Virus record (IMG/VR): IMGVR_UViG_3300025870_000059
Span: 1-27,066 of that record
From: a virus
Reading direction: 5' to 3' (one strand)
Length of the DNA: 27,066 nt
Shown here one piece after another: positions 3,001 through 25,331 of the stretch; positions within the stretch are counted from its first letter, which is position 1, and every line of letters begins with the position of its first letter. Both the position numbers and the translations under genes were made by a program. The notes beneath the pieces were generated by a model, which worked only from the letters and a program-made list of their open reading frames with translations, did not search any database and had not been told where the DNA came from.

Positions 3001-5837
3001 CAGTATTTGAACAAAACATTGAAATTGAAGCATCTAATACTTTACAAGCTGGAACTATTAACGTTGGTACTGTGCTTACTCCGTCATTAACTATATCCGA
3101 CGAAATTGAAATAGCTGGAAATGTTATTAGAGCAGTACAAAGTAATTCCGATCTTGTAATTGATGCTAGTGGAACTGGCTCAGTATTAATTCCTAATAGT
3201 AATGTTAGTATTACAAATGACTTAACAGTGTCTGGCTTAACAACTTTAGATAACACAGTAATCACTGGAGATATAACACATACCGGAAATTACGCACAGT
3301 CAGGCGATGCAGTCATTAACGGTAACTACACAGTCAATGGATTATTTTCAGTTAATGCAGAAATGCAATTTGAAAATATTTTAATTAATGATAACTTTAT
3401 CACTACAACTGTAACCAGTAGTGATTTAGAATTAAGAGCAGCAGGCACTGGAAAAGTATTAGTTCCTAACAATGATGTGTTAATTAATAACAACTTAGAA
3501 ATTTTAGGAATAACAACAACTGAAAATATTAATAATACTGGCTTAATAACTTCAGGGTCGTTTGAAACTGCTAAAATTAGAATTATCAACAATCTTGTTA
3601 AAACAATACTACCAGGTGACGATTTAATTATAGAAGCCAACGGTACTGGCACAATTAATGTAGATTCCGATTTAACTGTTACTAATGATTTTGCAGTTAC
3701 AGGCGAGACTACATTACAAGAAACAAGTATAACAGGTACATTAACACAACAAGGCGGTACAGTACAAAGTGGTAATTTTGATCTAACTGGTAACTTGCAA
3801 GTTGTTGGTGATTTAACAGCACTTAGCTCAGCACAATTTGAAGAAATATTAATTGATGACAACTTTATTACAACTACTAACACAAGTGCAGATTTAGAGC
3901 TACGTGCAAATGGACTTGGCGAAGTACTAATACCCCTTAATGATGTTGTTATTACAGATAATTTAACAGTTAACGGAGTAATAACTAGCGGATCAATTGT
4001 AAATTCAGGACAAATAATTAGTGATTCGTTTGGCACAGGCGACATATTAATTGATGATAATACAATTACAACATCTGTTACTAGCAGTAATTTAGAACTA
4101 CGTGCAAGCGGCACTGGTGAAATAAAAGTTCCTACAAGCAATGTTGAAATTACTAATGACTTAACAGTAATTGGATCAACAACAACTGCTGACGTAAACG
4201 TTACTGGACAAATTACACATGTTGGTAATACAATTCAAACAGGTGATTATACGGTAAACGGTGGCGTAGTGCTTACTGGACAACTTAATGTTACTGGTAC
4301 GTCTACTTTAGACAATATGGTGTTTTCAAATAATGTAATATCCATAGATCCAAATTCAACAAATACTGACTTAATTCTTAGACCAAACACAGGCAACGAA
4401 GTTATTATTGATCAAAATGATTTATCAGTAACTGGAGATATATTAGCACAAACTTCTACTATAAATTCAGACACTATTAACAATACGTTCTCTGTATCAG
4501 CATCTACATTTAGTACTGGTACTATATCAATAATAGGAAACTATATTACTTCTAGTGCTGATATTATTTTAGAAGCAAATCCAGGAGATGCTGTTAGAAT
4601 AGAAACTGCTGACGTAGAATTTGGTGAAGATCTAACTATTCTTGGAACTACTACTTTAAATGATTTAAATGTTAACGGAACAATAACACACATTGGTGAC
4701 TACACACAAACTGGTGACACAACTATTAATGGTAATATTATTGTCGGCGGCAACTTTGATGTTTCGGGTGCATTCCAGTTTGAAGAAATATTAATTGATG
4801 ATAACATTATTACAACTACATCAACAGATGCAAACTTAGAACTAAGTGCGAGCGGCACAGGCGAAGTATTAGTTCCAAATAATAATGTTAGAATGCTACA
4901 AGATTTAACAGTTGATGGAACAATATATGCAAATAGTGTTGTAACATCAAATTCGTTTATTTCTAGTGATACGTTTAGTACTGGTAATATTTTAATTGAA
5001 GATAACTTTATCACTACAACGAATACTAATAGTAATTTAGAATTACGTGCATCGGGTACTGGCTCTATTGATTTTGGTACTATACAAATTAAAGATAATA
5101 CAATTTCAACAGTAGGTAATGCTGATCTAATTATAGGTTCTGGTGATGCATTAATAATTTCGTCAACAGGTAGTTTAGTACTTCCGTCGGGTACAACAGC
5201 ACAACAGCCAGCTACTAGTTATACAGGCAGTTTAAGATTCAATACAGACATAAATGACTTTGAAGGATATAATGGCACAAACTGGACTAGCTTGGGAGGA
5301 GTGTTTGATACTGACAGAGACACCTATATTACAGCAGAACTAACTCCGGGTGCAAATGATGGTGCTATTAGATTTTATACAAATGGATCACTAGCAGCAA
5401 CTTTAGACAGTACAGGACTTGAAACACCAAGACTTGAAATTGATAATATTTTAATTGAAAATTCTACTATTAGTTCAGTAAATAATAATACTGATATTAA
5501 TATTGAAGCACAAGGAACTGGCGGAGTAGTATTAGAAAATTTCCGTATAGCAGAAAATACTATAACTAATACTGTACCAGGATCAAACACTGAAATTGTA
5601 CAAACAGGCAACGGGTATCTTAAATTTGGAGATACTGAAGGGTTTGTAATTCCAGTAGGTACAAGTATACAAAGACCAGGAGCACCAGTAGTTGGTGTTA
5701 CACGTTTTAACACTACTGACAGTCGTGTTGAAGTATATGACGGACAAAATTGGGTATCAGTTGCTGGTTCAGCAAGTGGTATATCAAGAGCAGATGCAGA
5801 AGATTTAGCACTAGAAATTGTATTAAGTTTAGGATAA
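1..5837 (+). CDS. Giant repeat-rich tail fibre / adsorption protein, 5' end outside window
   Basis: The reading frame whose first full codon is at position 3 is open from the window edge to the TAA at 5835-5837 (1944 visible residues), so the ATG at 630 is internal and the true start lies to the left. Visible residues 1-150 resemble a LamG/concanavalin-like jelly-roll (WYHVAVTREG, LFINGTQEGS, FDEVRIVKGEAKYTANF), a fold that commonly binds carbohydrate. A module with GDFRVGDLFVIDQENG (about 760-830) follows, then a YDLGS...WRDLW motif (1155-1190). From about 1200 to 5100 the protein is a long array of DDNFITTT / ADLELRA.GTG / NDLTVNG units. The C-terminus has two RFNT...Y.G.NW motifs (about 5235-5290 and 5700-5755), frequent at fibre ends. 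Only 4 nt separate its stop from the next start. Role in host binding is inferred; I cannot tell whether it is a long fibre, short fibre or other virion appendage. Confidence 0.85.
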   Translation, partial: TIEFYVYFDAVSGNLYDQRTTASQAAPVIYINGSSKIAYYVNGTEVITGTTTPTTSTWYHVAVTREGTNTKLFINGTQEGSTWTDNTTYVETGIRIGAGFNDTSFVDGNFDEVRIVKGEAKYTANFTPSTLPFVGEDGTILLLHFEGLDGSTDIVDDGISGQDIRFSGGATASKTTLVDLSDFGAEIRLIGSASVYGNEGLVGDGPGVVMYAIGHNVAYIGNGKDVDNDPNTVIQANEIVETNDAKVYYSTVDHKGDFRVGDLFVIDQENGAIQFSNASFNIDTTNGIEITDGTNTTLIRGDKIETGNWRLSNNTLETLSGDANITAASGQINLQDNVDITGDLDVVGNVTVAGNITIGDQSTDSISFAANIDSGMFPTTSDTYDLGSPSLRWRDLWSNRLYVDDIEINDNYITTTGTNADLELRANGAGVVRVPSNNVIISNDLTVNGNTILDDVTINSDFDVTGTVTITGDTDITGDVTIGQNLTVSETAQFEEILIDDNFITTTTTSADLELRAAGTGSVVIPNNNLEITNNLNVGIKLTSQNIDVIGNIQSASISSSDINIVNNTITTTQTSSNLVLRASGAGEIHVDTNDVVFGQTLTVAGATDVQDLTVNGTITHTGDYTQTGNTNITGNLDVFGTVTFDSEVQFEEILINDNFITTTSTSADLELRAAGTGRVLIPNNQVVIENDLDVTNNITANNIDVTVDVTAPTFNISDIQITGNEIATTVLSTDLDLVANGTGEIVFNSKGVFNQGLTVASGTTNLLNTTIVGQLSHAGDATYTGDALTTGNYIINGALTLTGGSAVIDDILIDTNFITTNITNADLELRADGNGIVRIQDRLEVTNDLTVNGTLSTPVLDVTTTITSDIFSTGDIEIQDNVITTTNTNNDLELRANALAFVRVDQNNVVMNQELEVVGATRLQNTTVSGSLTHIGQTNQTGDFDLTGNLNVTGDLDISGAAQFEEILIDDNKITTTSTNADLELSASGTGNVLINNAAVFEQNIEIEASNTLQAGTINVGTVLTPSLTISDEIEIAGNVIRAVQSNSDLVIDASGTGSVLIPNSNVSITNDLTVSGLTTLDNTVITGDITHTGNYAQSGDAVINGNYTVNGLFSVNAEMQFENILINDNFITTTVTSSDLELRAAGTGKVLVPNNDVLINNNLEILGITTTENINNTGLITSGSFETAKIRIINNLVKTILPGDDLIIEANGTGTINVDSDLTVTNDFAVTGETTLQETSITGTLTQQGGTVQSGNFDLTGNLQVVGDLTALSSAQFEEILIDDNFITTTNTSADLELRANGLGEVLIPLNDVVITDNLTVNGVITSGSIVNSGQIISDSFGTGDILIDDNTITTSVTSSNLELRASGTGEIKVPTSNVEITNDLTVIGSTTTADVNVTGQITHVGNTIQTGDYTVNGGVVLTGQLNVTGTSTLDNMVFSNNVISIDPNSTNTDLILRPNTGNEVIIDQNDLSVTGDILAQTSTINSDTINNTFSVSASTFSTGTISIIGNYITSSADIILEANPGDAVRIETADVEFGEDLTILGTTTLNDLNVNGTITHIGDYTQTGDTTINGNIIVGGNFDVSGAFQFEEILIDDNIITTTSTDANLELSASGTGEVLVPNNNVRMLQDLTVDGTIYANSVVTSNSFISSDTFSTGNILIEDNFITTTNTNSNLELRASGTGSIDFGTIQIKDNTISTVGNADLIIGSGDALIISSTGSLVLPSGTTAQQPATSYTGSLRFNTDINDFEGYNGTNWTSLGGVFDTDRDTYITAELTPGANDGAIRFYTNGSLAATLDSTGLETPRLEIDNILIENSTISSVNNNTDINIEAQGTGGVVLENFRIAENTITNTVPGSNTEIVQTGNGYLKFGDTEGFVIPVGTSIQRPGAPVVGVTRFNTTDSRVEVYDGQNWVSVAGSASGISRADAEDLALEIVLSLG
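1485..5060 (+). repeat. Eight-fold 471-bp (157-codon) tandem super-repeat inside the giant fibre gene
   Basis: The motif encoding (Q)FEEILIDDNFITTT starts (first Glu codon or its equivalent) at 1485, 1956, 2430, 2898, 3372, 3840, a degenerate copy near 4310, and 4782. The intervals are 471, 474, 468, 474, 468 and 942 (2 x 471), so the mean is exactly 471 bases. Each unit contains an A half (FEEILIDDNFITTT...ADLELRA) and a B half (DI.I..N.ITTT...NLELRASGTGEI) about 78 residues apart. The DNA is diverged between copies but still recognisable, for example gaagaaatattaatt recurs. In-frame unit length is kept even in the degenerate copy. Confidence 0.9.
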
Positions 5838-6600: not shown

Positions 6601-7977
6601 ATGGCAGAATTTAATCTAGGTAGATTACGATTTGTATGGAAAGGGGAGTGGCAGACCGGCACCGCATACCTAAGAGATGATGTTGTACGTTACGGCGGAA
6701 CATCATACGTATGTAAGGCAGGACACACAGGTCAATCAAACTTCTATGCAGATAGAGATCTTGGTAGTTGGGAGATCATGGCAGGAGGATTCGAATGGGA
6801 ATCTGAATGGACAGGTGGTACATATTATAAAGTAGGCAACGTAGTACGTTATGGTGTTACTGTTTATTTGTGTATTACAGGACATACAGCAGATCCTACA
6901 ACATTCGAAAACGATGGTGCAAACTGGGAAATTTTAGTTGCAGGTTTAAACTGGAGAGACTCTTGGGGCGCAGGCATTCAATACCAAGCAAACGAACTTG
7001 TAGTACAAAGTGATAGACTTTACATTGCATTACGTGATAATATTGGTGCTGACCCAGACACATCTGCTTTAGACTGGAGACGCTTAACAGGTTCTTTAGG
7101 ACTTCAAGACGGTGACACAATTGGCGTAGATCTTATCCCTGACGCTGACGAAGTTTACGACTTAGGTTCTGCAAGTAACAAATGGCGAGACCTTTTTCTA
7201 AGTGGTAGCACAATTTATCTAGGCGATACACAACTTAGTGTTAACGCAGACGGCAAGATATCAGCACTTGGCGGATTTGATTTAGGCGGTACTGAATCAT
7301 TAGAAAACGGCGAAATTAATATTACTGGTAATGTTATTGCAACAATTAATACAAATTCCGATCTTGATTTACGTACAAGCGGCACAGGCGCAATTAATTT
7401 AGAAGCCGATACAAATGTAACAGGTAACTTAGATGTTACTGGAGACATTACATTAGGCGGAAATATAAGAATTGGTGATAACGAAGTTGATACTGTTGAA
7501 GTACAAGCAGATTTTATATCTAATATTGTTCCAGATACTGCTGACACTTATGACTTAGGTAGTACAACTAAGCAGTGGGCAAATGTCTATACAAATAATA
7601 TTCGTGTTAATAATGCTATTACAACTACTGACGTAGGTACAATTGATGTTTTAAATACTAATGCAACAGTTATTAATGCATTTGGTGCAGCATCAACTAT
7701 TATGATTGGTGACACAAATGGCGAAACAACGTTTAGAACAACTATTGTTGTAAATGGTGACTTAGAGTTAGACAATCAACTTATGCCACAATATGGCGGT
7801 ACAGGTTTAACTACTATGCCGTCAAATAGTATTGTGTACGGTAACGGCACAGGTGTGATGCAGACCACAGGCGAAAGTGCTCCTGGGTCAAATGCAACAA
7901 CAAGTTTTGGAATCTTAACAACAGATGCATCAAATGTTCCAGTATGGACCGATGTGATCGACGAAGGAACCTTTTAA
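6601..7977 (+). CDS. Tail fibre with three N-terminal carbohydrate-binding-like modules (458 aa)
   Basis: Residues about 11-60, 64-112 and 116-163 are three tandem copies of a module with pattern W..W..GT.Y..ddVVrYgg.sYvC..gHt...........W, resembling the small chitin-binding CBM5/12 fold (exposed Trp/Tyr, about 50 residues). Next come two YDLGS....W..(L/V)(F/Y) motifs (about 7155-7190 and 7545-7585) and a DLDLRTSGTGAI repeat shared with the giant fibre at 1-5837. The C-terminus carries YGGTGLTTMPSNSIVYGNGTG, a motif common in phage fibre ends. SD-like AAGGA lies just before the ATG. A late-promoter octamer at 6555 makes it the likely first gene of a late transcript. A receptor- or glycan-binding virion role is inferred; sugar specificity is unknown. 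Confidence 0.85.
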   Translation: MAEFNLGRLRFVWKGEWQTGTAYLRDDVVRYGGTSYVCKAGHTGQSNFYADRDLGSWEIMAGGFEWESEWTGGTYYKVGNVVRYGVTVYLCITGHTADPTTFENDGANWEILVAGLNWRDSWGAGIQYQANELVVQSDRLYIALRDNIGADPDTSALDWRRLTGSLGLQDGDTIGVDLIPDADEVYDLGSASNKWRDLFLSGSTIYLGDTQLSVNADGKISALGGFDLGGTESLENGEINITGNVIATINTNSDLDLRTSGTGAINLEADTNVTGNLDVTGDITLGGNIRIGDNEVDTVEVQADFISNIVPDTADTYDLGSTTKQWANVYTNNIRVNNAITTTDVGTIDVLNTNATVINAFGAASTIMIGDTNGETTFRTTIVVNGDLELDNQLMPQYGGTGLTTMPSNSIVYGNGTGVMQTTGESAPGSNATTSFGILTTDASNVPVWTDVIDEGTF

Positions 7978-8064: not shown

Positions 8065-11000
8065 ATGGCTAGTAAACTAAAACACATTAGAAGTAGTGTA
8101 CCGGGAAGAGTACCTACAGACTCACAGATCGAAACAGGTCAAATTGCAATTAACACTGCTGATGGTAAAATTTTTACCAAAAAGGAAAACGGTGAAATTG
8201 TTGCGCTACAGGCGGTTGATCCAGATTTTGCATCGTCAAGTATTTTCCAAGGCGATACTTTATTAAAAGTATTAGACGCTCAGGACAGTACTAAAGCAAG
8301 TATTACTGCAAGTATAGACGGCGTATCTAAAGTTGTTATCGAAGCAGACGGTACCGAATTTAACGGACCAATTACTGTTAATGCAGCAGAAACATTATTC
8401 TTTAATGATGCTGACGACAACAAATACGTAGGTATACAAGCACCTGATGATGTTAACTTTAGCTATATTATTAAACTTCCACCAGAAGATTCAATTGACC
8501 CTGCTGTACTAACAACAGACGGACAAGGAAACACATTTTGGGGCAGGCCAGATGCGTTTGGCGGAAACAGAGTTTATGTTTCAGACAAATATGGTAATGA
8601 CGAAAACGACGGTACTAGCCAACCAGTTAAGTCAATTACGCGAGCAACACAAATTGCAGCAGATTTATCATATCGTCCAAAAGTAGATCCGGGTAGAGAA
8701 TTCTTTAACGCTAAGAAATTATTGCGTGATAACAAGCCATATATTAAAGAAGAAGCAATTGCGTTTATTGAAGCAAACTTTGTTAACTTTTTTCCAGAGT
8801 TTGATCAAACAGACTTTGGCAATGACGTAGTTAAATTAATTGATGCTGTAACAGAAGATATTGTATTTGCAACAAATTATAAATCAACAGTACTAGCATT
8901 AGAATTAGCTGAAAAGCAAAAAGCATTTGCAACAGACGGCCAAAAAGCAAAATACATTGATTTTATACAATATGTTCTTACTAGAATAGAACTTATTGCG
9001 CCACTTGATGCAGCAACACTTCCTGCTATTAGAACACTATGGGCATCTATTGTTGAAATTATATGGACTGATCTTGACGATGCTCAAGCAATGAGCGAAA
9101 TATACTTTACTGCAAATCCAACTGCAATAACAACACTTACAAATGGTGTTGCTCTTCTAAGAAGAAACAAAGAGTTTATTGCTGAAGAACAGATTGCTTG
9201 GATTGAAGCAGAAATACTTGCTGGTAATTCACCTTTTAACAACGGCTTAACATATTCACAAGCAGTATGGAAAGACTTTTATAATGACTTAATTGATGCA
9301 ATAGCATATGATTTACAGTATAGTGGTAATACTGCTACAATAGCACAGACTGATTGGCTAGCATCTGGTGATGATAATATTACAGGTGTCGAAGCACAAT
9401 ATAGAGAAGCAATTACACATTTAGTAAATTATATTGATGATGTAATCGAAAGCAACACAATATCAGTACCATCGCAATCGTCAGTAGCACAGGTTACTGA
9501 TGCAGCAAATGGTAGTAGTGTTGAATCAGCAGCAGCTATTGCATTGTTAACACAATTAAATGAAAGAACATATCAAGATAATGTTAACTATCCTGTTATA
9601 ATAACTAATCCAGCATACGTTGCTGCTTTTAACTTTGATCCTGGTAATACCGACAGAGGTACAATCCAAGACGAAACAGCAGCCGTTAGACAAAACTCAA
9701 TTATATACTTAGATCAAAAGTATCCTGGTGCATATAAAGAAGTAAAATGTCGTAGAGACACTGGGCTTATTGTAGATGCAGCATATTGGGATATTTTATT
9801 AGGTACTAATTATAATCAAATTACAGCTGGATTATCGTATACTAGAGGTACAAGTGCGTACTTAGGAAATTATCAAAATATCCAAACTGTAGAAAGTTTA
9901 AAACATGCTAAAACGTTAGCAACAGTGCTTACAAATTCTGATGCAGTTGCACAATTCCGTAATGACGAAGCATGGGACGAGGTTGTATACATTATTGAAA
10001 ACGGTGTTACTGAAGACGGGTCAACAAGACCTGTGCAGTATCCATCACCAGTTGGCGTTTCAGAATTTAAAGTTGAAGCCAAGGATGTACTACAAGACAA
10101 AAGAATACTTATTCAAAATAGAGCAATTAGTTGGTTAGCACTTAACTACCCTGCACTTGTGTATGATACTGCAAAATGTCGTAGAGACGTAGGTTATGTA
10201 CTTGACGCATTATGCTACGATATAACATATGGCGGTAACAGTGCTACACATTATAATGCTTCTATGTATTATGAAAATGCTGTTAACCAATTACCACCAG
10301 ATCAAAGAGTAATTACTTCAGCACTATACTCAGAATTAAAAAATTGGGTTGAAGGCGCAATTGCAGGTACTGACTTTACTGAAGCAATTGACGAAGAAGG
10401 TAACCCGATTATTGTTGATCCAACCGATACAGGACCAACTGGTACGCCAACTGAGGAAACTGGAACTGGTACTGGCGGAACCGGCACTGGCGGCGGAACA
10501 CCTACAGCAGCTCCACCAACAGGCGGACCAACTGGCACAGAGCCAACTGGTGAACCACCAGAAGAATTAGATCCATTACTAATTGTAGAAATTCAAAATC
10601 TACAAGCATTAATTGATGTTATCATTGGTGTAATTGATCAAGGACTTACTCAACTACCAAATAAAATTAATCCTGACATAGCATGGGTAACAGGTTCTGT
10701 TACAACAGCAGCAACAAACTTATTAAACGGTGTTTCTGGAATCCAGCAGTCAGTTATTGAATACATTGAAAATAACTTTACTGGATATGTTTATGACCCA
10801 GCCGACTTTACTGCTAAATTAGGTGCATTTATCGATGCAGCAGAACTAGACGTCGGATTAAGTACAAACTATAATTCTGTTACAGCAGGTAGAGCATACA
10901 ATATTGTTGAAGCACCAAATGTATTCATTGACCAGTTACGTGAGTTTTTACTTACTATAACAGATCTTAAAGCAAGAGCATTACTAGTTAGTGATGTAGC

Positions 11001-14000
11001 TGATTTTCCAAATGCAACAACATCTGTTACTAATTCGTTTGATGAAATTATTAATATTATTACAAACGGTAACAGTTCTGCAAATGCGCTAACATTTACT
11101 TCACCAACTGGTGCAACTGACACTGAATATGCTAAAGATCATTTACAACTTAATAGAGAATTTTTACAAGACGAAATTATTGCGTGGTTAGATGTTAACT
11201 ACGGTAGTTTAAGATATATTCCTCGTAAAACTAAAGAAAGAGTTGGATTTGTTGTTGATGCACTAAGCTATGACATATTATACGGCGGAAATAGTGCTAC
11301 AAGATTTGCAGCAGCGGCATACTTCTTTGGTTCAAACGAACTTAGTGGTGCAGAAGCTAATGCAACGGCAGCAGCATATAATAGATTACAAACTGTTGTA
11401 GCACAGATAGTTAGAGGTATTACTGTATCTAAATCATCAGGCAATGCACAAGTACAAGATACATCAACTCAAAATGCTGACGAAGCAACTGGAATTTTAG
11501 TACAAAACTTAGTACAAATTGTTGAAGATACAATTACTAATGGCGACTTGTCAGCATTGCCAGCTGCAATTGAACCGTCCACAGCTTGGAACGTATCAGA
11601 TCTTACAGATGCAGCAACAGGACTTAACAGCACACAATCAGCAATGGTTACAGAATCAATATTCTACTTAAACACTATTACGTTTGATTATAATAGAGCT
11701 ACATGTAAGCGTGATATTGGATTAATTGTTGACGCAGTGGCCTATGACATTGTACTAGGCGGAAATCAAAAGTCAGTAGAAGGCGGACTAAGTTACTTGG
11801 CAATTGCTAAAGTAATGAAGCAACAGTTATTCCAAACATTGAAATCAATTCAATTTACTAGAGACTTATGTGTAGACGGTATTTTAACTAATACAGCATA
11901 TACGCCAACGTATACTAATGTTGCACCATTCCAAAAATTATATACTAACCTTGAGACTCAATCAGCAGTTGCAACCGTTAGAGAACGATTTGACGAATTA
12001 TTATTAGTATTAACTAGACCAGCAAAAACTGCTCCTGAGCTTGTTGGTGTAAGTACTAAACTTAATACTTACAATGCATTACAAAATGCTAAATCTGTAA
12101 TACAAACAGCAACAACACGTTTTATTAAAGGTACATTTAGCGGATTTATTTACAATGTTGCAACGTGTGAACGTGACATTGGTTTAATTATTGATGCAGT
12201 ATGCTATGACTTAATTACAGGATCGTACTTTGCTTCAGCTGTAGCAGGTAGATCGTATGCACGTGGCACAGCAAGTGTTGTAAATGCAGCCCAAAAAGAA
12301 GAAACAGTAGCAGCATTTGGATACGCTAAAGGATTATCACTAGAGTATGCTGATAGTATTGAACAAGCTGAAATAGCACTTCTTTGGGATATTGTTATTG
12401 ATCTTATTAGTACAGGTGTTACTGACAAAGGTAATATTTGGAACAACTTTACATATAATTCTGTTAAGTGTGCAAGAGATACTGAATACCTTGTAGATGC
12501 AGTACGTCTTGATGCTATCTTTAACAGTAATTATAGATCAGTTGCAAGTGCAAAACGTTATCTAAGTGGCACAGGCATTGTTGTAACGTCTAGTCAAAAG
12601 CCTCAAACTGCTGCGGCGTTTGGCGAAGCTAAGGTATTAACAGCAGCAATTCTTAGTGATGCTACGTTAATTTCACGCTCAAATGCGCTTTGGGACGAAA
12701 TTATTGATATAGTTCAAAATGGCGAAGACGCAGTAGATGCATATAGCTTCCCAACACCAACTGGCGGCGCAAGTAATGCTAGTGATTCTGGTTACGCAAA
12801 TGCAGCAGCACAATTAATTGCTAACAAAACATTTATGCAAAAAGAAGTTAGTGCATGGATTGCTGGACAAATAGGTGCATCGCAACCTCCGTTTACATCA
12901 GACTTTGTATATGATACAGAGAAGTGTGAAAGAGACATTGGATTGCTTGTTGACGCACTTGTTTATGATATTACATACGGCGGCAACTTACAAACTTATG
13001 ACGCAGCAAATGCTTACTATAAAGATGGTGTAGCGCAATATGGCACAGACGAAAAAGATGAAACTATTGCTGCATACACTCGATTAAAAACTATTGCAGA
13101 ACAAGTTATTATTGAAACAGCAGTTGTTGTATCAGCAGGAAACCAAGAAACGCAAGATACATCAGGTACAGCAGGTAGTGCAACAGCAGGAAACCAAGCT
13201 GAAGCATTAGTTCAACAACTTATAGATACATTGACTAATGACGGCACATTGCCAGTTAGATCAGAGCCTGATATTAGTTGGACAAGTGGTACATTCCAAA
13301 CACAATATGCTTCACTTGGAACAGCAGGTCAGCAAAGTGTATCAGCAGACGTTATTACTTGGATTGATAATAACATTGCAAATGCATTCCCAAGTAACAA
13401 CTACACACCAGCAGATGCTGCAACGTCAGTGTCTACTTTCCAAACTAATAAAGCGACTTATATATCGTCGGTAACTAGTTGGATTGCAACAAACTATCCT
13501 GATTTAACTTATGATAGTGCAACGTGTGAAAGAGATACAGGATTCTTAATTGACGCAATAAGTCATGATCTTATGTATAACGGTAACGTACAGTCGTACA
13601 TTGCAGCTGATGCATATTATAGCTTTGGTGTATTACAATTAGGCAGTGTTGCTGAAAAAGAAGCTACAGTAGCAGCATATACATATTTAAGAAACTTAAT
13701 GATTGCAGATTCAACTGGTGCTGACACAGGCACGAGAATAACATCATTATTTACTGATGTGTTTATAATTATTAATGAAGGTGATATACCAGATATTGTT
13801 GAAGCAAGATTTGATATTATTCCAATTACTGTTGCAGTGTCAGCAGGTGACTTTTATGTTAACAACCCAATTATTGTTCCAGACTTTGTTACTATTGTTG
13901 GTGATTCAATTCGTTCAGTTGTTATTAGACCACTTAACGCTGGTAAGGATATGTTCCGTACACGTAATGGTACATATATCTTTGGTGTAACGTTTAAAGA

Positions 14001-17000
14001 TGCACTAGACGAAAACAATATTCCAACATATACGTTTGATTTTGCATTAGCATTTGATGATCCAGCTGATACATCAGTTGATAGAACTGATTATTTTGGT
14101 ATTGGTAATACTAAACCAATTATTACAACTTCACCATATATCCAGAACTGTTCAATTATATCGTTCTTAGGTGCAAACGGTGCAAAGGTTGATGGTAGTA
14201 AAATTACTACTCCAAACATTCCAAAAATACTTGAAGAAGTTGAAACTCCAGTTAGCTTCGGAGACGGCATACCAGAACAAGGTAAGTCAATGGTTTCGAA
14301 CGCATTTACTACATTATCGTTTGGTGGTACAGGTTGGTTAGTAATTAACGATGCTTATGCACAGATTGTTAGTTGTTTCCAAATCTTCATGCTTAACGGT
14401 AGTTACTGTCAGTCAGGTGGTTACTTATCAATTACTAACTCAGCTTCAAACTTTGGTTTGTATGCACTACGTGCAAGTGGTTATTCACAAAATGCATTCT
14501 TGTTTGATAGAGGAACAATTGTTTCAAGTGGATTCGACGGCGGCAATACATTTACAAGTATTGGTACAGGTCGTTCACCAATTGAACAATTTGTTATTAG
14601 AATTAGAGATAAGGACGATAACACTGATATTACAGCAGATTACAAACAAGCAACTACTGAAGTATCATTTGACGCAACTAATATAGATGCTGCTACAAAC
14701 ATTATTACTATTATAGATCATGGATTTACAAATAATCAAGCAGTATATTATAATAGTAACAGTAATGAAGATATTCCAGGATTATTAGATCAAGGACAGT
14801 ACTACGTAAACATTATTGATACAGACACATTTAGACTGTTTAATGATAACTCTTTAACATTTGCAACTGAAGTTTCTCCAGGTACTGGAACACATTCATT
14901 TACATTAAATGCAGAAGAATTTACTGTTAAAGGTATATTAAATGAGCATAACAACTATCAAACACTTGTTCTAACAGACGGACAAAGTTTATCAATTAAT
15001 AGCTTTAATACAGGTGATGCACTATTAGGTAGTACTGCTAGTTTTGAAAATACTGCATATGTACTTGATTGGGACCATTTAACTAGAACCCTTATTGTTT
15101 CTAACGAAGGTACTAACGTTGGTGCAGATGAACCAATTACAGTACGTTTTGAAGAAACGTCAACAATTACACAAGTTGCAGGAGCACTTATTTCTCCAGC
15201 ATACACAATTGAATCAGCTGTAGCAAGAACTGATTACTGGACAGCAACATTTACTGTTGACTCAACAGTACCTGACAACAGTATACAAAATCCAAGTCAG
15301 GCAGTAAGTAACAAGATTAGTTTCCACAGACCTTCAATTGTTAACAGTTCATCACATACTTGGGAATATTCAGGTTCGGGTGTTGACTATAACGCACTAC
15401 CTCAAAACGGCGGTAAGAGCCAAGGTACAGAGTTTGAGCAATATTCAGAACTACCAGGACGAGTTTACGCTTCAGGTACTAACGAACTTGGTGACTTTAA
15501 AGTTGGTTCGTTTATTGTTGCTGAAAACAAGTCAGGTGAAATTGCGTTTAATGCAAGAGTTACAGTTGGCGAACTTGCTGTATTACGTTTGAGCTTATCA
15601 GATGTTAATATTGAGGAGTTCTCCACAGACGTAGGCTTGGGTGATAATGAAATTGGCGGCGCCAAAGATACTCGTGTATCAACTCAGCTTGCTATACGTA
15701 GCTTTGTTGCTAATAGACTTGGTAACGTACTAGATAAGAACGTTAGTTCTAACGCAGTACCAGGTGCTGTTGTACAGTTAAACTCAGCAGGACAAATCAA
15801 CGCAGACTTATTACCACCAGCACGTGGTATTACAACATACAATGTTGATGAGTGGGAAGGTAGATTAAGACTTTCAGAACGTGTTCCACCAGTTGAAGTA
15901 ATTGCAGGTGATAACGCAAGTGAAACATATGATCAAGCAATTATTGTAGTATCCAACAACATAACAGCTAACAAAGGTGATGAAATTACCCAGGTTGGTA
16001 ATGCTGGAGCATTTGGTTATAACCAAAATACAATTATTGGTAATACGGTTATAACATTAGCAGACGTTACTGGTACATTTAACACTACAGGCGAGCTTGA
16101 AGTTAATGGTGTTGCGCAGTCAGGTGTTATTCCAACTACTGTTAACGCAACAGAAGAAATTGTTGACAACTACTTTATGAAGAGTGACACTATTAGTCAG
16201 TACTTAGTACTTGAAGATGGCGTCACATATGACTTTACTGGCATTACTGAAGTAATTGGTGCTAACGCAGGCGCACAAGGTGATATTACAGCAGGACCAA
16301 CATATGGTAACATTGCATCACTTAACTATGCAACATTTACAGCAGGTACTGGCTATACTCCATCTACAGGAACAGCAGCATACAAAGACGTTACGTTAAC
16401 AGGCGGCACAGGTTCAGGTGCAGTTGGTGATGTTATTGTCACAGGTGGCGTAGTTGAAAGTGTTCAGCTAACAGCAAGTGGAACAGGCTATACAGCAGGT
16501 GACACACTAAGTGCAGCAGCGTCAGCTATTGGCGGAACTGGTGCAGGCTTTAGTATTAACATTGCTACAGTACAAACTAGATTGTTTATTGATCTATCAG
16601 GCGGCTTTACTAAGTTTAGTGCTAATGAAGGTTCACCAGATTACATACAAGATGCTAATGCAACTGTTAAAACTATTGCAGATGTAACAGCAACTACAAA
16701 TGTTATTGCTAACGGTGCTGATATTGGCGCAGGCGGTGATATTGACTACTTAAACAGTGAATTTGAAGTTACAGGACACGGTCTTGTAAGTGGTGAAGCT
16801 GTTAAGTATAGCAGAAATGGTAACCCAGTAATAGGTAACTTAGTTGATGGCGAAACATACTTTGTTAAAGTAATAGATATAGATACATTTGAACTTTACG
16901 CAAACTATGCATTTACATCAGGCTCACAGATACTATTAGGTGGTTCAACATCAGGTAACCATGTATTTGCACATGATGTAATATCAGTTGATAACGATAT

Positions 17001-18753
17001 TTTCAACATTCCATCACACACGTTTGCTACAGGTGATATTGTAAGATTAAGTGCTAGTGATGCACCAGCTGGGTTATTAGACCAAACAACTTACTTTGTT
17101 GGTAGTGTAACAACTAATACATTTACGTTACATGAACAAGGCGGTGATGCATTAGCAAGTACAAACGGTGTATCGCTAAATGCAGTTGATTTAACTGACA
17201 CTGGTACAGGTTCAATTACACTTACACTACAAAACGTTGCTATTGTTGGAACAGTAAACACAAGTTCAACAACACTTAATAACTGGGGTATACTTGCTTC
17301 AAGTAGCTTCGATGCAAGTGCAATTGTTTCGGGTGTTATTGATCCTTCGAGATTGGCACCAGAAGGAAGTGCAACAGATCAGTCGTTCTTAAGACTGCTT
17401 AACGGTAACAGTGCTTGGGTACTAGCAGTACAGAATATTAGACCAACAGCAGATAGTCCAATATCTGTAACTGGCGACTTCTTTACTGATCCAGATGATG
17501 GACTTAACAAGTACTATTCAGAACTAGCATTAGATGTTTCAAGAGCTGATGATGCAGGTGGCGATACTAACTATACTAACTTGGGTGTTGTAGGAACTAA
17601 TAAACTACAGTTTACTACATCCAATGGACAAGTTAGCATTAAGAGTGGTGTTGTTGATGCAGGATTCTTAGGCGGACAAGCAGGTAACTATTATACTAAC
17701 CCAGCTAACTTGTCAAGCAGTGTACCAACTAATAAAGGTGGTACAGGACTAGCAAGTTTCACAGCAGGTGACTTGATTTACTCAGGTGCAACTGATAGTT
17801 TAACTAACTTATCAATTGGTCCTAATAACTCAGTATTGTTTAGTGACGGAGCTGTTCCACAGTGGACAACATCACCAACATTCGGTGGTGCGTTAACAAT
17901 TGGTGGTATTGCTGCTGTTAACAGTACATCGGCAGCTACAAGCGCAACAACAGGTGCGCTACGTGTTGCAGGCGGTGTAGGTATTGGCGGAGACGTTTAT
18001 CACACTGGTACGCTTAACACTGAAAAACTAAATGTTATTAACACAGATCCAAGTAATAATGTTGCTCTAGCTGTTAGATCTAGTTTACAATTCCAAGCAG
18101 TTGACGGCATTCAGCAAATTACTGCTAGAATGGATCAACCAGCAGGTGGTTTACGATTTGACGGTGCAGCTGGACAGTTGTTTACAATTACAGATACACT
18201 AGTTGGTACTGTGTTCTCAGTAAACAATGATACTAAAACATTATTAGAAGGTAATGACGTCAACGAACTTATTGCAGTTCCTGCAAGTAACAGTTATTTA
18301 CTAGTTGGTCAAACATCAAACGACGGTGTTAGCAGACTACAAGTTACAGGACAGTCAGTATTTAACGGTAACGTAAATATTACTGGCACAATGACTGCTG
18401 CTGCTAAGAGCTTCCTTATTACGCATCCAGCTAAGCCAGGACATAAATTACAATACGGTTCACTTGAATCACCATATCATGGTGTAAGATTAACTGGTGA
18501 AGGAGTTGTAAAGAATGGTACAGCAACTATTGAGCTACCTGACTATATCCATGCACTATGCCGCGAAGAAGGAGTTAATGTACAATTAACTAATATCAAA
18601 CACGGACAGGTATTATGGGTAGAATCAGTTGATATTGCTAATAACCAAGTTGAAGTTAGAACTGAAAATACTGATGGTAACTTTAAGTTTTACTGGAGCT
18701 TCACAGCAGTCAGAAAAGATGTTCCGCCACTAGCAACGGAGTATAAGTACTAA
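8065..18753 (+). CDS. Giant multidomain tail fibre (3562 aa) with split beta-helix and 11 Cys/Arg-Asp repeats
   Basis: The N-terminus (LKHIRSSVPGRVPTDSQIETGQIAINTADGKIFTKK, split here for length only) matches the usual phage fibre attachment region. Residues about 170-205 (NRVYVSDKYGNDENDGTSQP...SITRATQIAA) look like the start of a pectin-lyase-like beta-helix. Residues about 210-1880 carry 11 repeats with CxRDxGxxVDA and YDIxxGGN. A Pro/Thr/Gly linker lies at about 782-834. The beta-helix resumes at about 1912-2180 (VSAGDFYVNNPIIVPDFVTI, VGDSIRSVVIRP, ITTSPYIQNCSI). Next comes a LGDFKVGSF module (about 2475), as in the fibre at the left edge, then many beta-rich receptor-type segments. The end (KSFLITHPAKPGHKLQYGSL, ELPDYIHAL) is a C-terminal domain I know from many fibre proteins, but not its function. 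The overall plan resembles large structural proteins of marine T4-like phages. No catalytic residues can be assigned, so depolymerase activity is only a possibility. Confidence 0.88.
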   Translation: MASKLKHIRSSVPGRVPTDSQIETGQIAINTADGKIFTKKENGEIVALQAVDPDFASSSIFQGDTLLKVLDAQDSTKASITASIDGVSKVVIEADGTEFNGPITVNAAETLFFNDADDNKYVGIQAPDDVNFSYIIKLPPEDSIDPAVLTTDGQGNTFWGRPDAFGGNRVYVSDKYGNDENDGTSQPVKSITRATQIAADLSYRPKVDPGREFFNAKKLLRDNKPYIKEEAIAFIEANFVNFFPEFDQTDFGNDVVKLIDAVTEDIVFATNYKSTVLALELAEKQKAFATDGQKAKYIDFIQYVLTRIELIAPLDAATLPAIRTLWASIVEIIWTDLDDAQAMSEIYFTANPTAITTLTNGVALLRRNKEFIAEEQIAWIEAEILAGNSPFNNGLTYSQAVWKDFYNDLIDAIAYDLQYSGNTATIAQTDWLASGDDNITGVEAQYREAITHLVNYIDDVIESNTISVPSQSSVAQVTDAANGSSVESAAAIALLTQLNERTYQDNVNYPVIITNPAYVAAFNFDPGNTDRGTIQDETAAVRQNSIIYLDQKYPGAYKEVKCRRDTGLIVDAAYWDILLGTNYNQITAGLSYTRGTSAYLGNYQNIQTVESLKHAKTLATVLTNSDAVAQFRNDEAWDEVVYIIENGVTEDGSTRPVQYPSPVGVSEFKVEAKDVLQDKRILIQNRAISWLALNYPALVYDTAKCRRDVGYVLDALCYDITYGGNSATHYNASMYYENAVNQLPPDQRVITSALYSELKNWVEGAIAGTDFTEAIDEEGNPIIVDPTDTGPTGTPTEETGTGTGGTGTGGGTPTAAPPTGGPTGTEPTGEPPEELDPLLIVEIQNLQALIDVIIGVIDQGLTQLPNKINPDIAWVTGSVTTAATNLLNGVSGIQQSVIEYIENNFTGYVYDPADFTAKLGAFIDAAELDVGLSTNYNSVTAGRAYNIVEAPNVFIDQLREFLLTITDLKARALLVSDVADFPNATTSVTNSFDEIINIITNGNSSANALTFTSPTGATDTEYAKDHLQLNREFLQDEIIAWLDVNYGSLRYIPRKTKERVGFVVDALSYDILYGGNSATRFAAAAYFFGSNELSGAEANATAAAYNRLQTVVAQIVRGITVSKSSGNAQVQDTSTQNADEATGILVQNLVQIVEDTITNGDLSALPAAIEPSTAWNVSDLTDAATGLNSTQSAMVTESIFYLNTITFDYNRATCKRDIGLIVDAVAYDIVLGGNQKSVEGGLSYLAIAKVMKQQLFQTLKSIQFTRDLCVDGILTNTAYTPTYTNVAPFQKLYTNLETQSAVATVRERFDELLLVLTRPAKTAPELVGVSTKLNTYNALQNAKSVIQTATTRFIKGTFSGFIYNVATCERDIGLIIDAVCYDLITGSYFASAVAGRSYARGTASVVNAAQKEETVAAFGYAKGLSLEYADSIEQAEIALLWDIVIDLISTGVTDKGNIWNNFTYNSVKCARDTEYLVDAVRLDAIFNSNYRSVASAKRYLSGTGIVVTSSQKPQTAAAFGEAKVLTAAILSDATLISRSNALWDEIIDIVQNGEDAVDAYSFPTPTGGASNASDSGYANAAAQLIANKTFMQKEVSAWIAGQIGASQPPFTSDFVYDTEKCERDIGLLVDALVYDITYGGNLQTYDAANAYYKDGVAQYGTDEKDETIAAYTRLKTIAEQVIIETAVVVSAGNQETQDTSGTAGSATAGNQAEALVQQLIDTLTNDGTLPVRSEPDISWTSGTFQTQYASLGTAGQQSVSADVITWIDNNIANAFPSNNYTPADAATSVSTFQTNKATYISSVTSWIATNYPDLTYDSATCERDTGFLIDAISHDLMYNGNVQSYIAADAYYSFGVLQLGSVAEKEATVAAYTYLRNLMIADSTGADTGTRITSLFTDVFIIINEGDIPDIVEARFDIIPITVAVSAGDFYVNNPIIVPDFVTIVGDSIRSVVIRPLNAGKDMFRTRNGTYIFGVTFKDALDENNIPTYTFDFALAFDDPADTSVDRTDYFGIGNTKPIITTSPYIQNCSIISFLGANGAKVDGSKITTPNIPKILEEVETPVSFGDGIPEQGKSMVSNAFTTLSFGGTGWLVINDAYAQIVSCFQIFMLNGSYCQSGGYLSITNSASNFGLYALRASGYSQNAFLFDRGTIVSSGFDGGNTFTSIGTGRSPIEQFVIRIRDKDDNTDITADYKQATTEVSFDATNIDAATNIITIIDHGFTNNQAVYYNSNSNEDIPGLLDQGQYYVNIIDTDTFRLFNDNSLTFATEVSPGTGTHSFTLNAEEFTVKGILNEHNNYQTLVLTDGQSLSINSFNTGDALLGSTASFENTAYVLDWDHLTRTLIVSNEGTNVGADEPITVRFEETSTITQVAGALISPAYTIESAVARTDYWTATFTVDSTVPDNSIQNPSQAVSNKISFHRPSIVNSSSHTWEYSGSGVDYNALPQNGGKSQGTEFEQYSELPGRVYASGTNELGDFKVGSFIVAENKSGEIAFNARVTVGELAVLRLSLSDVNIEEFSTDVGLGDNEIGGAKDTRVSTQLAIRSFVANRLGNVLDKNVSSNAVPGAVVQLNSAGQINADLLPPARGITTYNVDEWEGRLRLSERVPPVEVIAGDNASETYDQAIIVVSNNITANKGDEITQVGNAGAFGYNQNTIIGNTVITLADVTGTFNTTGELEVNGVAQSGVIPTTVNATEEIVDNYFMKSDTISQYLVLEDGVTYDFTGITEVIGANAGAQGDITAGPTYGNIASLNYATFTAGTGYTPSTGTAAYKDVTLTGGTGSGAVGDVIVTGGVVESVQLTASGTGYTAGDTLSAAASAIGGTGAGFSINIATVQTRLFIDLSGGFTKFSANEGSPDYIQDANATVKTIADVTATTNVIANGADIGAGGDIDYLNSEFEVTGHGLVSGEAVKYSRNGNPVIGNLVDGETYFVKVIDIDTFELYANYAFTSGSQILLGGSTSGNHVFAHDVISVDNDIFNIPSHTFATGDIVRLSASDAPAGLLDQTTYFVGSVTTNTFTLHEQGGDALASTNGVSLNAVDLTDTGTGSITLTLQNVAIVGTVNTSSTTLNNWGILASSSFDASAIVSGVIDPSRLAPEGSATDQSFLRLLNGNSAWVLAVQNIRPTADSPISVTGDFFTDPDDGLNKYYSELALDVSRADDAGGDTNYTNLGVVGTNKLQFTTSNGQVSIKSGVVDAGFLGGQAGNYYTNPANLSSSVPTNKGGTGLASFTAGDLIYSGATDSLTNLSIGPNNSVLFSDGAVPQWTTSPTFGGALTIGGIAAVNSTSAATSATTGALRVAGGVGIGGDVYHTGTLNTEKLNVINTDPSNNVALAVRSSLQFQAVDGIQQITARMDQPAGGLRFDGAAGQLFTITDTLVGTVFSVNNDTKTLLEGNDVNELIAVPASNSYLLVGQTSNDGVSRLQVTGQSVFNGNVNITGTMTAAAKSFLITHPAKPGHKLQYGSLESPYHGVRLTGEGVVKNGTATIELPDYIHALCREEGVNVQLTNIKHGQVLWVESVDIANNQVEVRTENTDGNFKFYWSFTAVRKDVPPLATEYKY
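8800..13640 (+). repeat. Eleven diverged Cys/Arg-Asp repeats within the giant fibre
   Basis: The unit core, C(E/K/R)RDxGxxVDAxxYD followed by (I/L)xxGGN, is centred near 8814, 9268, 9745, 10171, 10801, 11221, 11701, 12163, 12466, 12922 and 13522. The first, second and fifth copies have lost the Cys-Arg-Asp signature, and the sixth has KERVG in place of CERDIG. Each core is usually preceded by an N..FI..E...WI segment and followed by an alanine/tyrosine-rich helical stretch. Spacing is irregular, about 100-210 residues. Confidence 0.85.
10410..10565 (+). repeat. Low-complexity Pro/Thr/Gly linker in the giant fibre
   Basis: Encodes a chain of PT, GT and GG steps (PTDTGPTGTPTEE, GTGTGGTGTGGGTP, TGGPTGTEPTGEPPEE). 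It separates the fourth and fifth Cys/Arg-Asp repeats. DNA here is richer in GGC/ACT triplet repeats than its surroundings. It looks like a flexible or extended hinge. Confidence 0.8.
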
Positions 18754-18792: not shown

Positions 18793-21612
18793 ATGGGCGT
18801 ACATTACGGACCAAGACCCACAGGCAATTTGCCACCGATAACAACGCCGCCAACGGCAGATCCAGCTACGGGTAATACAAAACCAGTAAACCCGTCTAGT
18901 TGGACAAGAGAAAGCGACTGGCTAGCAATGCCAAACGTAGTTGAAACTGACCAAGTATTTTATGGGTTAGTTGCAATTCACGATGTGCCGCATAATTTTT
19001 TAACATTTAGAGCGCAAGGTGCTTATACAATTGACTGGGGTGACGGAACGCCTACTGAAAATTATTCAAGTAATGCAACAGCACGACATGATTATGATTG
19101 GAGCAGTGTTTCATCTTCTACATTAACTAGTAGAGGATATAGACAGTGCATGGTTACTGTAACACCGCAAGCCGGAAACAACCTTACAGCTATTAATTTA
19201 AATGATAAACATAACCAAGCAGGTCTAACAAACTATTCGTCATCTGGTTGGCTAGATATTAAATTTGCTATGAATAATGTAGGTACGTTCTACTTGTATA
19301 ACTCAGTATGGCGTCATTCTGTATTAGAAAGATGTCATTGGGTTGCATCGTCATGTAGTCAAACAAGTGGTAACCAATTGTTTAGACATTGTTGGGCTAT
19401 GCGATCAATACCAAACTTACCATTTGCTTCATTAACAGATTGCTACTTTATGTTTGGACACTGTGACAATTTAGGCGACGACGGATATCCAACATTACCT
19501 AGTACAGCAACATCAAACAATTTCCACTATATGTTCTATTTGAACAGACAGTTGCAAACTGCTCCTGTATTAGATACTGGTAATGCTACAAATATGAGTT
19601 ATATGTACCGACTTTGTTGTCGATTAAAGTATATACCTTCGCTTAATTTCCAAAATAATTTATATTCACAATACCAATTTCAAAACTGTTTTTGCTTAGA
19701 ATTATTTAGTGACGTGTCATGGGACTTTGCTAAAGTTACACGTTGCGAATATATGTTCTCAGGGTGTTATGCTATAAGATACTTACCAGCAATGGATACT
19801 AGTGCTGTAACACGTATGGACGGTATGTTCTTATCACTAAGGTCGTTGACAGAAATGCCAGAAGTTGATCTATCTGCGTGTACTAATGCGTATCGATTAA
19901 TGGAATCATGTACTAAAGTTAAGTATACACGATTTGTTGGTTCAAACTCAAATATTACACGAATGGACAGAATGTTCCTTGCATGTTATAGACTGGAATA
20001 TTTACCAGCTCTTGATACATCTAATATTGAAAGAGCTGATAACATGTTTAACGGTTGTATTAACCTTAAACGTTTAACTCAAGATACGTTTGATCTAAGT
20101 GCATGTACACGTATTAATGGTATGTTTGCAGGTATGAATCAGTTGAGAGTTGCACCTGTATTACTTAATTCTAGCTTAGTTGTTGACCTTGATAACTTGT
20201 TTACAAGTTGCTTCTACTTAACTGAAATTGGATATATTGATACACAAAGCGTTACTGACTTTTATCGTATGTTTATTAACTGTTACTCACTAACAGGTCT
20301 TGATTGGGAATTAGACTGTAGAAGTGCCACACGACTACGTGGTATTTTCCACAGTTGTATTTCATTGCGTAAATCACCAGCACTACGTAACCTTAACTTA
20401 GTTAATGAAGCAACCGAGTTCCGTGATTTATACTATAATTGTAATTCGCTGCAAGAATTTACAAATATAGAATTAGACACGTCGAATGCTACTACTTTTT
20501 ATTACATGTTCTATAACTGTTTGAGTTTAGCAACAATTCCGTTTAACTTTGATACAAGTAAGTGTATTGACATGCGTGGAATGTTTAGATACTGTCGTGT
20601 GTTAGAATCGTTTAATCAAACTAATAATGAATTTGATACTACATGGCTTCGTAACTATGATGCAATGTTTTGGGATTGTCATAATTTACAAGAAGTTCCG
20701 GATATTGAAATAAACAATATCAATACTGATATCAACGGAACCGCAGTTACTCAAAATACAAACTTAGATTATATTTTCTATGGCTGTTACAATCTTCGAG
20801 AAATTCCAGCTAACTTCTTTAACAAGACTTATTTAACTGCTGATGGCACTCCAAAGAGCTTTGACGGTTATAGATTGTTTACTAACTGTTTTACAATTAA
20901 TACATTACCGACAATGAGCTTCGGTCAAATCAATAGATTTTACCAATTCTTACAGAGTTGTCGTAATGTTGAATATCTACCAACAATGGATACTTCAAAT
21001 GGCGGCGACATGAGATACGCTTTTGCATACATGTATGCTCTTAGAGAAATGCCAGCTGGTGTTGATTTATCAAGTTGTACTAATGCATATGCATTTGCTA
21101 TCAACCCAAGAGCAATGATGTATCTTCCGGACTTAAATGGTCCTGGTGCAAGTTGTACAGACTTCCGTTACATGTTCTATGCCAGTGAGACTCTTTCGAA
21201 TGTAGATGCTACATTTGATACTAGCGGCGCAACAAATGTTGCACGTATGTGGGGATATTGTAGAGCACTTAAAAAGTTACCAGGAACTTATGATTTCAAT
21301 AATGTTACTACTGAGTCAACAAGTGCAGCAGCAGGTATAAATGAGTTTATTGTAGATTGTAGCTCACTACAAGAAGTTAATGTTATTAATGTACGTAGAC
21401 AGATGCATTTTAAAAACTCAAGTTTTGATAGAGATCAACTTGTAAATATGTTTAATAACTTAGTTGACAATAGTAGCCCTGAGTTAAAGCCAGACGGTAC
21501 AACACGGGCTACAGCATATACATTGTTTATAAGTGGTAACCTCGGATTGCAAACATTAACTCAAGCTGACAGAGATATAGCTCTTAATAAAAATTGGATT
21601 CTAAACGGATAA
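18793..21612 (+). CDS. BspA/DUF285-type leucine-rich-repeat virion protein (939 aa)
   Basis: ATG 18793 is preceded by AAGGAG (18778-18783). Residues about 75-110 (YTIDWGDGTPTENYSS...HDYDW) form a PKD-like beta segment. Residues about 199-858 hold roughly 25 repeats of about 26 residues with the pattern MF..C..L..LP.(L/M)DTS..T.(M), the signature of BspA-like LRRs (DUF285). Conserved Met-Phe and Cys pairs would line the solenoid core. The C-terminus (LQTLTQADRDIALNKNW) is like other phage members I recall. No signal peptide is present, as expected for a virion protein assembled in the host cytoplasm. The neighbouring fibre genes suggest a host-recognition tip or adhesin-like fibre. The repeats are diverged, so this is an old expansion rather than a recent one. 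Confidence 0.85.
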   Translation: MGVHYGPRPTGNLPPITTPPTADPATGNTKPVNPSSWTRESDWLAMPNVVETDQVFYGLVAIHDVPHNFLTFRAQGAYTIDWGDGTPTENYSSNATARHDYDWSSVSSSTLTSRGYRQCMVTVTPQAGNNLTAINLNDKHNQAGLTNYSSSGWLDIKFAMNNVGTFYLYNSVWRHSVLERCHWVASSCSQTSGNQLFRHCWAMRSIPNLPFASLTDCYFMFGHCDNLGDDGYPTLPSTATSNNFHYMFYLNRQLQTAPVLDTGNATNMSYMYRLCCRLKYIPSLNFQNNLYSQYQFQNCFCLELFSDVSWDFAKVTRCEYMFSGCYAIRYLPAMDTSAVTRMDGMFLSLRSLTEMPEVDLSACTNAYRLMESCTKVKYTRFVGSNSNITRMDRMFLACYRLEYLPALDTSNIERADNMFNGCINLKRLTQDTFDLSACTRINGMFAGMNQLRVAPVLLNSSLVVDLDNLFTSCFYLTEIGYIDTQSVTDFYRMFINCYSLTGLDWELDCRSATRLRGIFHSCISLRKSPALRNLNLVNEATEFRDLYYNCNSLQEFTNIELDTSNATTFYYMFYNCLSLATIPFNFDTSKCIDMRGMFRYCRVLESFNQTNNEFDTTWLRNYDAMFWDCHNLQEVPDIEINNINTDINGTAVTQNTNLDYIFYGCYNLREIPANFFNKTYLTADGTPKSFDGYRLFTNCFTINTLPTMSFGQINRFYQFLQSCRNVEYLPTMDTSNGGDMRYAFAYMYALREMPAGVDLSSCTNAYAFAINPRAMMYLPDLNGPGASCTDFRYMFYASETLSNVDATFDTSGATNVARMWGYCRALKKLPGTYDFNNVTTESTSAAAGINEFIVDCSSLQEVNVINVRRQMHFKNSSFDRDQLVNMFNNLVDNSSPELKPDGTTRATAYTLFISGNLGLQTLTQADRDIALNKNWILNG

Positions 21613-25275: not shown

Positions 25276-25280
25276 ATACA

Positions 25281-25288: not shown

Positions 25289-25302
25289 GAAAAGGCTTTA
25301 AT

Positions 25303-25310: not shown

Positions 25311-25331
25311 CTAGTACGGAGACAATCAATA

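Follow-up and report, generated by a model that had tools for sequence, protein, structure and literature searches.

The stretch of viral DNA analysed here (IMG/VR virus record IMGVR_UViG_3300025870_000059, positions 1 to 27,066; hereafter the window, 27,066 nucleotides in length) carries a tail-fibre gene of a T4-like phage, and we found that the start of a beta-helix in the encoded protein is interrupted by an inserted and expanded array of 11 repeats. It is very likely that these repeats share both the fold and the ancestry of phycobiliproteins. We favour, as probable though by no means certain, the reading that they are bilin-carrying globin domains of the phycobiliprotein type arrayed on an adsorption fibre. 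Computational analysis showed the insertion, its variable copy number, the phycobiliprotein fold and homology, and the conservation of the C, R and D residues of a C-x-R-D motif together with their joint loss. The elements concerned are as follows.

8065..18753 (+): tail-fibre gene of a T4-like phage, 3562 amino acids; open reading frame (ORF) call, PHROG families 5342 (3e-211) and 4527 (2e-62)
8557..8661 (+), residues 165-199: left half, strand and capping helix of the beta-helix (YVS..GND.NDG...P..TI..A..A); hidden Markov model (HMM) L, contiguous homologues, DUF1565
8701..9000 (+), residues 213-312: repeat 1; HMM; C-x-R-D lost
9139..9477 (+), residues 359-471: repeat 2; HMM; C-x-R-D lost
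9649..9957 (+), residues 529-631: repeat 3; HMM; C562-x-R-D intact, kept in L016-L018
10075..10386 (+), residues 671-774: repeat 4; HMM; C705-x-R-D intact, L016-L018 comparison
10705..10902 (+), residues 881-946: repeat 5; HMM, partial match; C-x-R-D lost
11125..11442 (+), residues 1021-1126: repeat 6; HMM; C-x-R-D lost
11605..11916 (+), residues 1181-1284: repeat 7; HMM; C1214-x-R-D intact, L016-L018 comparison
12058..12345 (+), residues 1332-1427: repeat 8; HMM; C1368-x-R-D intact, L016-L018 comparison
12349..12681 (+), residues 1429-1539: repeat 9; HMM; C1469-x-R-D intact, L016-L018 comparison
12793..13137 (+), residues 1577-1691: repeat 10; HMM; C1621-x-R-D intact, L016-L018 comparison; AlphaFold (residues 1015-2214) and Foldseek
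13423..13743 (+), residues 1787-1893: repeat 11; HMM; C1821-x-R-D intact, L016-L018 comparison; AlphaFold and Foldseek
13819..14037 (+), residues 1919-1991: right half, first beta-helix rung (VSAGDFYVNNPIIVPDFVTIVGD); HMM R, strands in AlphaFold models
14038..15264 (+), residues 1992-2400: fibre part after the right half; start beta-rich in the models, 3' limit approximate

An earlier sequence-only reading of the window had proposed a beta-helix split by a block of about 1700 residues with 11 repeats, whose two halves would normally be adjacent, and had taken this as nested insertion and expansion. In the window fibre NRVYVSDKYGNDENDGT lies at residue 168, ITRATQIAA at residue 191 and VSAGDFYVNNPIIVPDFVTI at residue 1925. 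When 80 related IMG/VR loci and 15 isolates were scanned with one profile for each half, the halves were found to be 4-16 residues apart in 64 sequences, and the remaining sequences, the window included, had 1, 2, 3, 4, 7, 9 or 11 repeats between them at the same place; in the window the halves are 1719 residues apart. The proposal therefore holds, with 11 repeats by HMM, and related fibres without the block do exist, so the outcome that would have spoken against it, homologues whose halves are never adjacent, did not materialise. In L032/L033 and L042 the array is still flanked on both sides by recognisable ends of the original loop (GLVYK...AYTSGYVPNG, for instance, as against the uninserted GLVYTSGGAVNG). 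We conclude that insertion and expansion are supported, because the halves are so close in the 64 sequences and 1-9 repeats occupy the same place in others.

The Pfam family DUF1565, which we take to be an N-terminal beta-helix element, is consistent with this. In homologues with contiguous halves its model extends across the two, with E-values of 4e-4 and 0.009 that are at or slightly below the cut-off, and thus fits an insertion after the capping helix and before the first rung. The window fibre resembles this parallel beta-helix (PF07602) in its order of strand, loop, capping helix and first rung; in the homologues the rung follows the cap directly, and in the window the array intervenes. 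A tree of the right half needs about five state changes, at least two of them forced by well-supported branches, and places the window within a clade of 11 sequences that all have 3-11 copies; at some nodes the change may be either an insertion or a loss. In other phages the same repeat was also seen at a second insertion site, some 200 residues past the right half (for example L034, residues 478-579), and it occurs as well within gp7, 'structural protein' and 'short tail fiber' genes; it therefore behaves as a reusable module.

The sequence-only reading erred in taking this for one of the largest fibre genes of such a phage. Fibres of 3000-3700 amino acids are ordinary at this locus and that of S-RSM4 (L013) has 4482, so that a record size is ruled out by homologues of 4482 and 6682 amino acids. 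The latter is a single ORF with about 33 such repeats (L263 contig, G030:C1, ~104-123 kb), and a further single ORF of 5616 amino acids has about 24 (L414 contig, G059:C1, ~30-45 kb).

To delimit the repeats we used an HMM seeded from cyanophage and window sequences and then iterated, which found exactly 11 divergent copies in residues 213-1893 of the fibre with domain E-values of 2e-8 to 1e-30. It was adopted in place of a strict regular expression because the latter recovered only 5-7 of the 11: the pattern C.RD.G..VDA..YD occurs five times in the fibre and C.RD....[VILM][DE][AG] seven times. Pairwise identity among the window repeats is about 15-30%; self-BLAST of the protein returned zero repeat pairs, the whole protein matched no Pfam family at E<=0.1, and Pfam and NCBIfam alike leave the repeats unannotated. 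C-x-R-D is intact in seven of the 11 (C562, C705, C1214, C1368, C1469, C1621 and C1821). An identical 11-repeat layout is present in three further IMG/VR contigs, L016, L017 and L018, with block identities to the window of 96%, 76% and 77%, respectively, and we conclude that the block is not an assembly artefact. It is under purifying selection, the ratio of nonsynonymous to synonymous substitution rates (dN/dS) being 0.19 for the window against L017. Between repeats 4 and 5 lies a Gly/Thr/Pro-rich low-complexity linker (TGTPTEETGTGTGGTGTGGG...; 10430-10710 (+), residues ~790-880).

The identity of the repeats, which the sequence-only reading missed, emerged from profile searches of 177,635 distinct PDB sequences. 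An alignment of 82 unselected repeats (A3) ranked phycocyanin first with E = 0.056. A second, longer alignment (A4), which favours matches at C-x-R-D because it was built from 73 repeats with that motif intact, had CpcA 8iml as its top match (E = 1.2e-4), and nearly all among the matches listed were phycobiliproteins. Detection also worked in the opposite direction: an HMM made from CpcA and CpcB of cyanobacterial loci matched 85 of 235 non-redundant repeats at E<0.01, as against none of 235 reversed or shuffled controls. The hhalign score was 37, compared with a maximum of 25.7 over 60 block shuffles and 9.0 for the reversed profile. Individually, 9/73 members of A4 match PF00502 (Phycobilisome; best 4.9e-5) and three repeats match TIGR01338 (C-phycocyanin alpha), and a C-x-R-D-x-G...Y....GG stretch of about 20 residues aligns gap-free to phycobiliproteins. 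There is thus detectable homology to the superfamily of bilin-binding globins and phycobiliproteins. The antenna family proper (PF00502) was not recognised in the window protein by Pfam at E<=0.1, and only the nine related repeats match it. By sequence, then, we file the repeats as distant relatives within the superfamily and not as antenna phycobiliproteins.

Structure models point the same way. AlphaFold models were obtained for a natural three-repeat relative, L019 (predicted local distance difference test score, pLDDT, 75.6), and for residues 1015-2214 of the window fibre (pLDDT 67.1); the predicted template modelling scores (pTM) are 0.53 and 0.38. It can be seen that each repeat is modelled as a kinked helix pair and a 21-residue helix starting at C-x-R-D, followed by three further helices, the first short and the other two long, which agrees with the helical inserted unit of the sequence-only reading and corresponds, in both models, to the globin-like fold with helices A/B-E-F-G-H. 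Foldseek searches of the PDB with the window model returned almost solely phycobiliproteins, among them smURFP 6fzn (template modelling (TM) score 0.77, root mean square deviation 3.0 across 135 columns) and the ApcE bilin domain 4xxk (0.67, probability 1.00). The L019 repeats matched phycoerythrin 7lj0 (TM 0.70), the ApcE bilin domain 4xxi (0.68), CpcA 4f0t (0.60) and some globins, and the non-repeat part of L019 matched beta-helix enzymes and tailspikes. As far as models can tell, this specificity for phycobiliproteins is striking; with such long, multi-domain queries, the Foldseek E-values (0.004-0.7) come out modest.

In phycobiliproteins, and in some bilin biosynthesis-associated globins (BBAGs), the Cys of CXRD bonds ring A of the bilin and the R and D hydrogen-bond the chromophore (PMC10151467). 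Among the 235 non-redundant repeats, whose mean identity is 28%, C, R and D are conserved in 86, 83 and 93%, respectively, and all three are present together in 81%. They are also lost jointly: C with R at an odds ratio of 86 (p = 3e-21) and C with D at p = 2e-16, values that ignore shared ancestry. Loss of C is independent of the similarly conserved D54, N60, A50 and D49, and Y70 and T86 covary with C. In L017 and L018, at 76-77% block identity, all 21 C/R/D residues of the intact window motifs are kept, as are all ten cysteines of the block. C-x-R-D thus looks like a putative ligand site that is kept or lost as a unit in each repeat, and on balance we think that at least some repeats carry a putative bilin.

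Several known systems invite comparison. The repeats share with phycocyanin, phycoerythrin and allophycocyanin (PF00502) a helix order of the globin type, with C-x-R-D-x-G opening helix E and GG closing it. Unlike the light-harvesting proteins, which are free alpha and beta subunits of about 160 residues, they stand in tandem inside a phage beta-helix fibre, at low overall identity and with no phycobilisome context, and any pigment in them is only putative. BBAGs, by their description (Rockwell et al. 2023, PMC10151467), are likewise bilin-type globins outside the antenna; they are associated with genes for heme oxygenase (HO) and ferredoxin-dependent bilin reductase (FDBR) and attach bilins in Escherichia coli without lyases. 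However, BBAGs are bacterial and belong to gene clusters, whereas the repeats are tandem modules of a virion fibre. The same beta-helix and the same repeat, the latter unannotated, are found in the giant fibres of T4-like cyanophages (S-PM2 p091, DSL-LC03, S-SCSM2R; PHROG 5342/4527). Precisely the loop that holds 11 repeats in the window holds three in DSL-LC03 and S-SCSM2R; in S-PM2, Syn1 and P-HM1 that loop is uninterrupted and the repeats lie elsewhere in the same protein.

The genomic surroundings of the repeat are also suggestive. A tblastn search with one repeat against 50,697 phage records gave 392 matches, of which 391 were to records named Synechococcus, Prochlorococcus or cyanophages and one to a record named 'Marine'. 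Of 15 isolates picked via the fibre, 14 have repeats and 12 have CpeT, and in 10/12 cpeT-bearing cyanophages (genomes of about 190 kb; for example S-RSM4 (L013) and S-MbCM7 (L014)) this bilin-lyase-type gene lies about 1-6 kb from the repeat-rich fibre gene; since synteny is shared, the ten cases are not independent events. All three contigs >200 kb found via the fibre (L034, L043 and L083) have adjoining genes for HO and bilin reductase, and all six found via the reductase have 8-42 repeats; as one contig is common to both sets, there are eight distinct contigs, each with repeat and reductase. This co-occurrence, in 3/3 and 6/6 of these large contigs, may be a gene association of the BBAG type; it was not found in the 27-kb window record or its 110-kb relative, both fragments. 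The reductases of L034, L043 and L083 are 52-65% identical to one another and nearest to phage PcyA, not PebS, which fits the viral hemO-pcyX/pcyA cassettes described in 2024 (PMC11480375): the three largest contigs first found via the fibre carry the same two-gene cassette. In that report the purpose of the cassettes is 'still enigmatic', no virion acceptor is named and a BBAG-type partner is only a possibility. Inspection of the sequence by eye revealed a ClpS-like gene at or just before the HO-reductase pair in the jumbo contigs L193, L194 and L195.

The explanation that we favour as bringing these observations together is the following. The array, which lies after the N-terminal capping helix and ahead of the first rung in the fibre beta-helix, should, because the loop of homologues can be as short as 4-16 residues, project from the rod or sit at its base. 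The seven intact repeats would each attach an open-chain tetrapyrrole (bilin) through their Cys during virion assembly, the bilin coming from the host in cyanophages and being made by the phage where HO and a bilin reductase are encoded; phage CpeT would perhaps attach it. More speculatively, the coloured array might tune adsorption to light, or protect or stiffen the fibre. Several cyanophages are documented to depend on light for adsorption; in the dark P-HM2 fails to adsorb and P-SSP7 adsorbs (PMC7112961). We found the repeat in the P-HM2 genome and no significant match in P-SSP7, a contrast drawn from only a handful of phages, in which the difference between T4-like and T7-like morphology is a confounder. 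A benefit through light-responsive adsorption is in our view doubtful, and we are equally sceptical of the wider picture in which cyanophages and uncultured jumbo T4-like phages have virions with pigmented fibres whose bilins make adsorption or fibre deployment light-responsive.

A number of points weigh against bilin-carrying fibre domains. C-x-R-D is lost in four of the 11 window repeats, the A4 search leans towards the motif, the joint-loss statistics take no account of ancestry, and the models and their Foldseek matches have the pTM values and modest E-values given above. P-SSM2 (NC_006883) has PebS and HO and no detectable repeat; conversely, the reductase is absent from most of the repeat-bearing cyanophages tested, whose hosts make bilins. 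G001, a 110-kb fragment that is a near-identical (96-99%) relative of the window, has no detected cpeT, psbA, reductase or HO, and HO and bilin reductase were not found in the window's own 27-kb fragment either. Among contigs of the same capsid lineage sampled by gp23 (58-186 kb), 12/14 have repeats and 0/14 the reductase. The two-by-two table of repeat against reductase for these contigs consists wholly of fragments, none with a reductase, and is weakly informative because gp23 and the cassette are some 130-175 kb apart in the three cassette contigs. A general lineage association may lie behind the co-occurrence of repeat and reductase. Finally, the closest capsid and gp15 relatives of the window phage have heterotroph hosts.

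Some of these observations would also be expected if the repeats were descendants of bilin globins that now serve, free of pigment, as a mere protein spacer or arm in which C-x-R-D is structural. Repeats persist without the motif, copy number varies freely, as in a length element (0-11 at this site, about 33 in one ORF), and the missing reductases of cyanophages and gp23-sampled contigs would need no explaining. However, C, R and D stand far above the 28% background and their joint loss does not follow that of other conserved positions; C covaries with Y70 and T86, and every motif residue is kept at 76% block identity. We therefore regard a pigment-free spacer as possible but rather unlikely.

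Bilin-globin ancestry could itself be questioned if a generic helical bundle had come to resemble phycobiliproteins by convergence; the haemoglobin and other globins in the Foldseek lists, the modest E-values there and the absence of a Pfam match for the window protein at E<=0.1 could be read in this way. Sequence profiles alone nevertheless pick out phycobiliproteins from the whole PDB, the phycocyanin HMM matches 85/235 repeats and no reversed or shuffled control, and the C-x-R-D-x-G...Y....GG alignment has no gaps, so that convergence is already disfavoured and seems to us highly improbable. It is just as improbable that the 1719 residues between the halves reflect a fusion of two fibre genes, each half a separate complete fold, given the 4-16-residue spacing in 64 sequences, the 1, 2, 3, 4, 7 or 9 repeats between the halves in others, the DUF1565 coverage of both, and the original loop ends retained around the array in L032/L033/L042.

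The assignment of the 3562-residue protein as a T4-like tail fibre follows from its similarity to PHROG 5342/4527 and from the structural genes around it: upstream lie small fibre genes and one that is baseplate-wedge-like, and downstream come the gene of a leucine-rich protein, that of a tail sheath stabiliser, and neck genes. The baseplate-wedge-like protein (3-5837 (+)), truncated at its N-terminus by the window edge, combines long internal repeats (EILIDDNFITTTST.ADLELRAAGTG) with a Laminin_G_3 domain. The leucine-rich protein (18793-21612 (+), 939 amino acids) adjoins the 3' side of the fibre gene and contains six DUF285/BspA-like stretches (PF03382, E 1.9e-36), which are uncommon among phage structural clusters. 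Carbohydrate-binding modules of family 5/12 were matched in two structural proteins, strongly at 6601-7977 (+) and weakly at 24052-25329 (-).

As for lineage, gp23 of G001 and gp15 of the window are nearest to those of jumbo phages such as Phosso, PA5oct and Atu_ph07, the nearest relatives being phages of Sinorhizobium, Pseudomonas and Vibrio, and psbA was not found in 24 of the 25 repeat-bearing contigs tested. For these two reasons we dropped the idea that the window phage is a typical cyanophage. In four related jumbo isolates of heterotrophs we found neither the repeat nor a bilin reductase.

In the open-access literature, subscription papers and preprints being outside our scope, we came across no tail fibre reported to contain phycobiliprotein- or globin-like domains, nor any account of a virion protein composed of phycobiliprotein-related ones. 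Bilin binding by such a fibre is still hypothetical. Even if no pigment is bound, it would reveal a new source of folds in phage fibres and would clearly exemplify a beta-helix that houses a globin array, here of 0 to 11 copies. A bilin-acceptor domain on the fibre, if real, would offer one testable hypothesis for viral bilin genes, for adsorption only in the light and for the natural function of BBAGs, and pigmented fibres, if they exist, would explain the unexplained viral bilin genes along with the light-dependent adsorption of some cyanophages. The identity of the repeats points to a possible role for the genes of pigment synthesis found in many aquatic phages.

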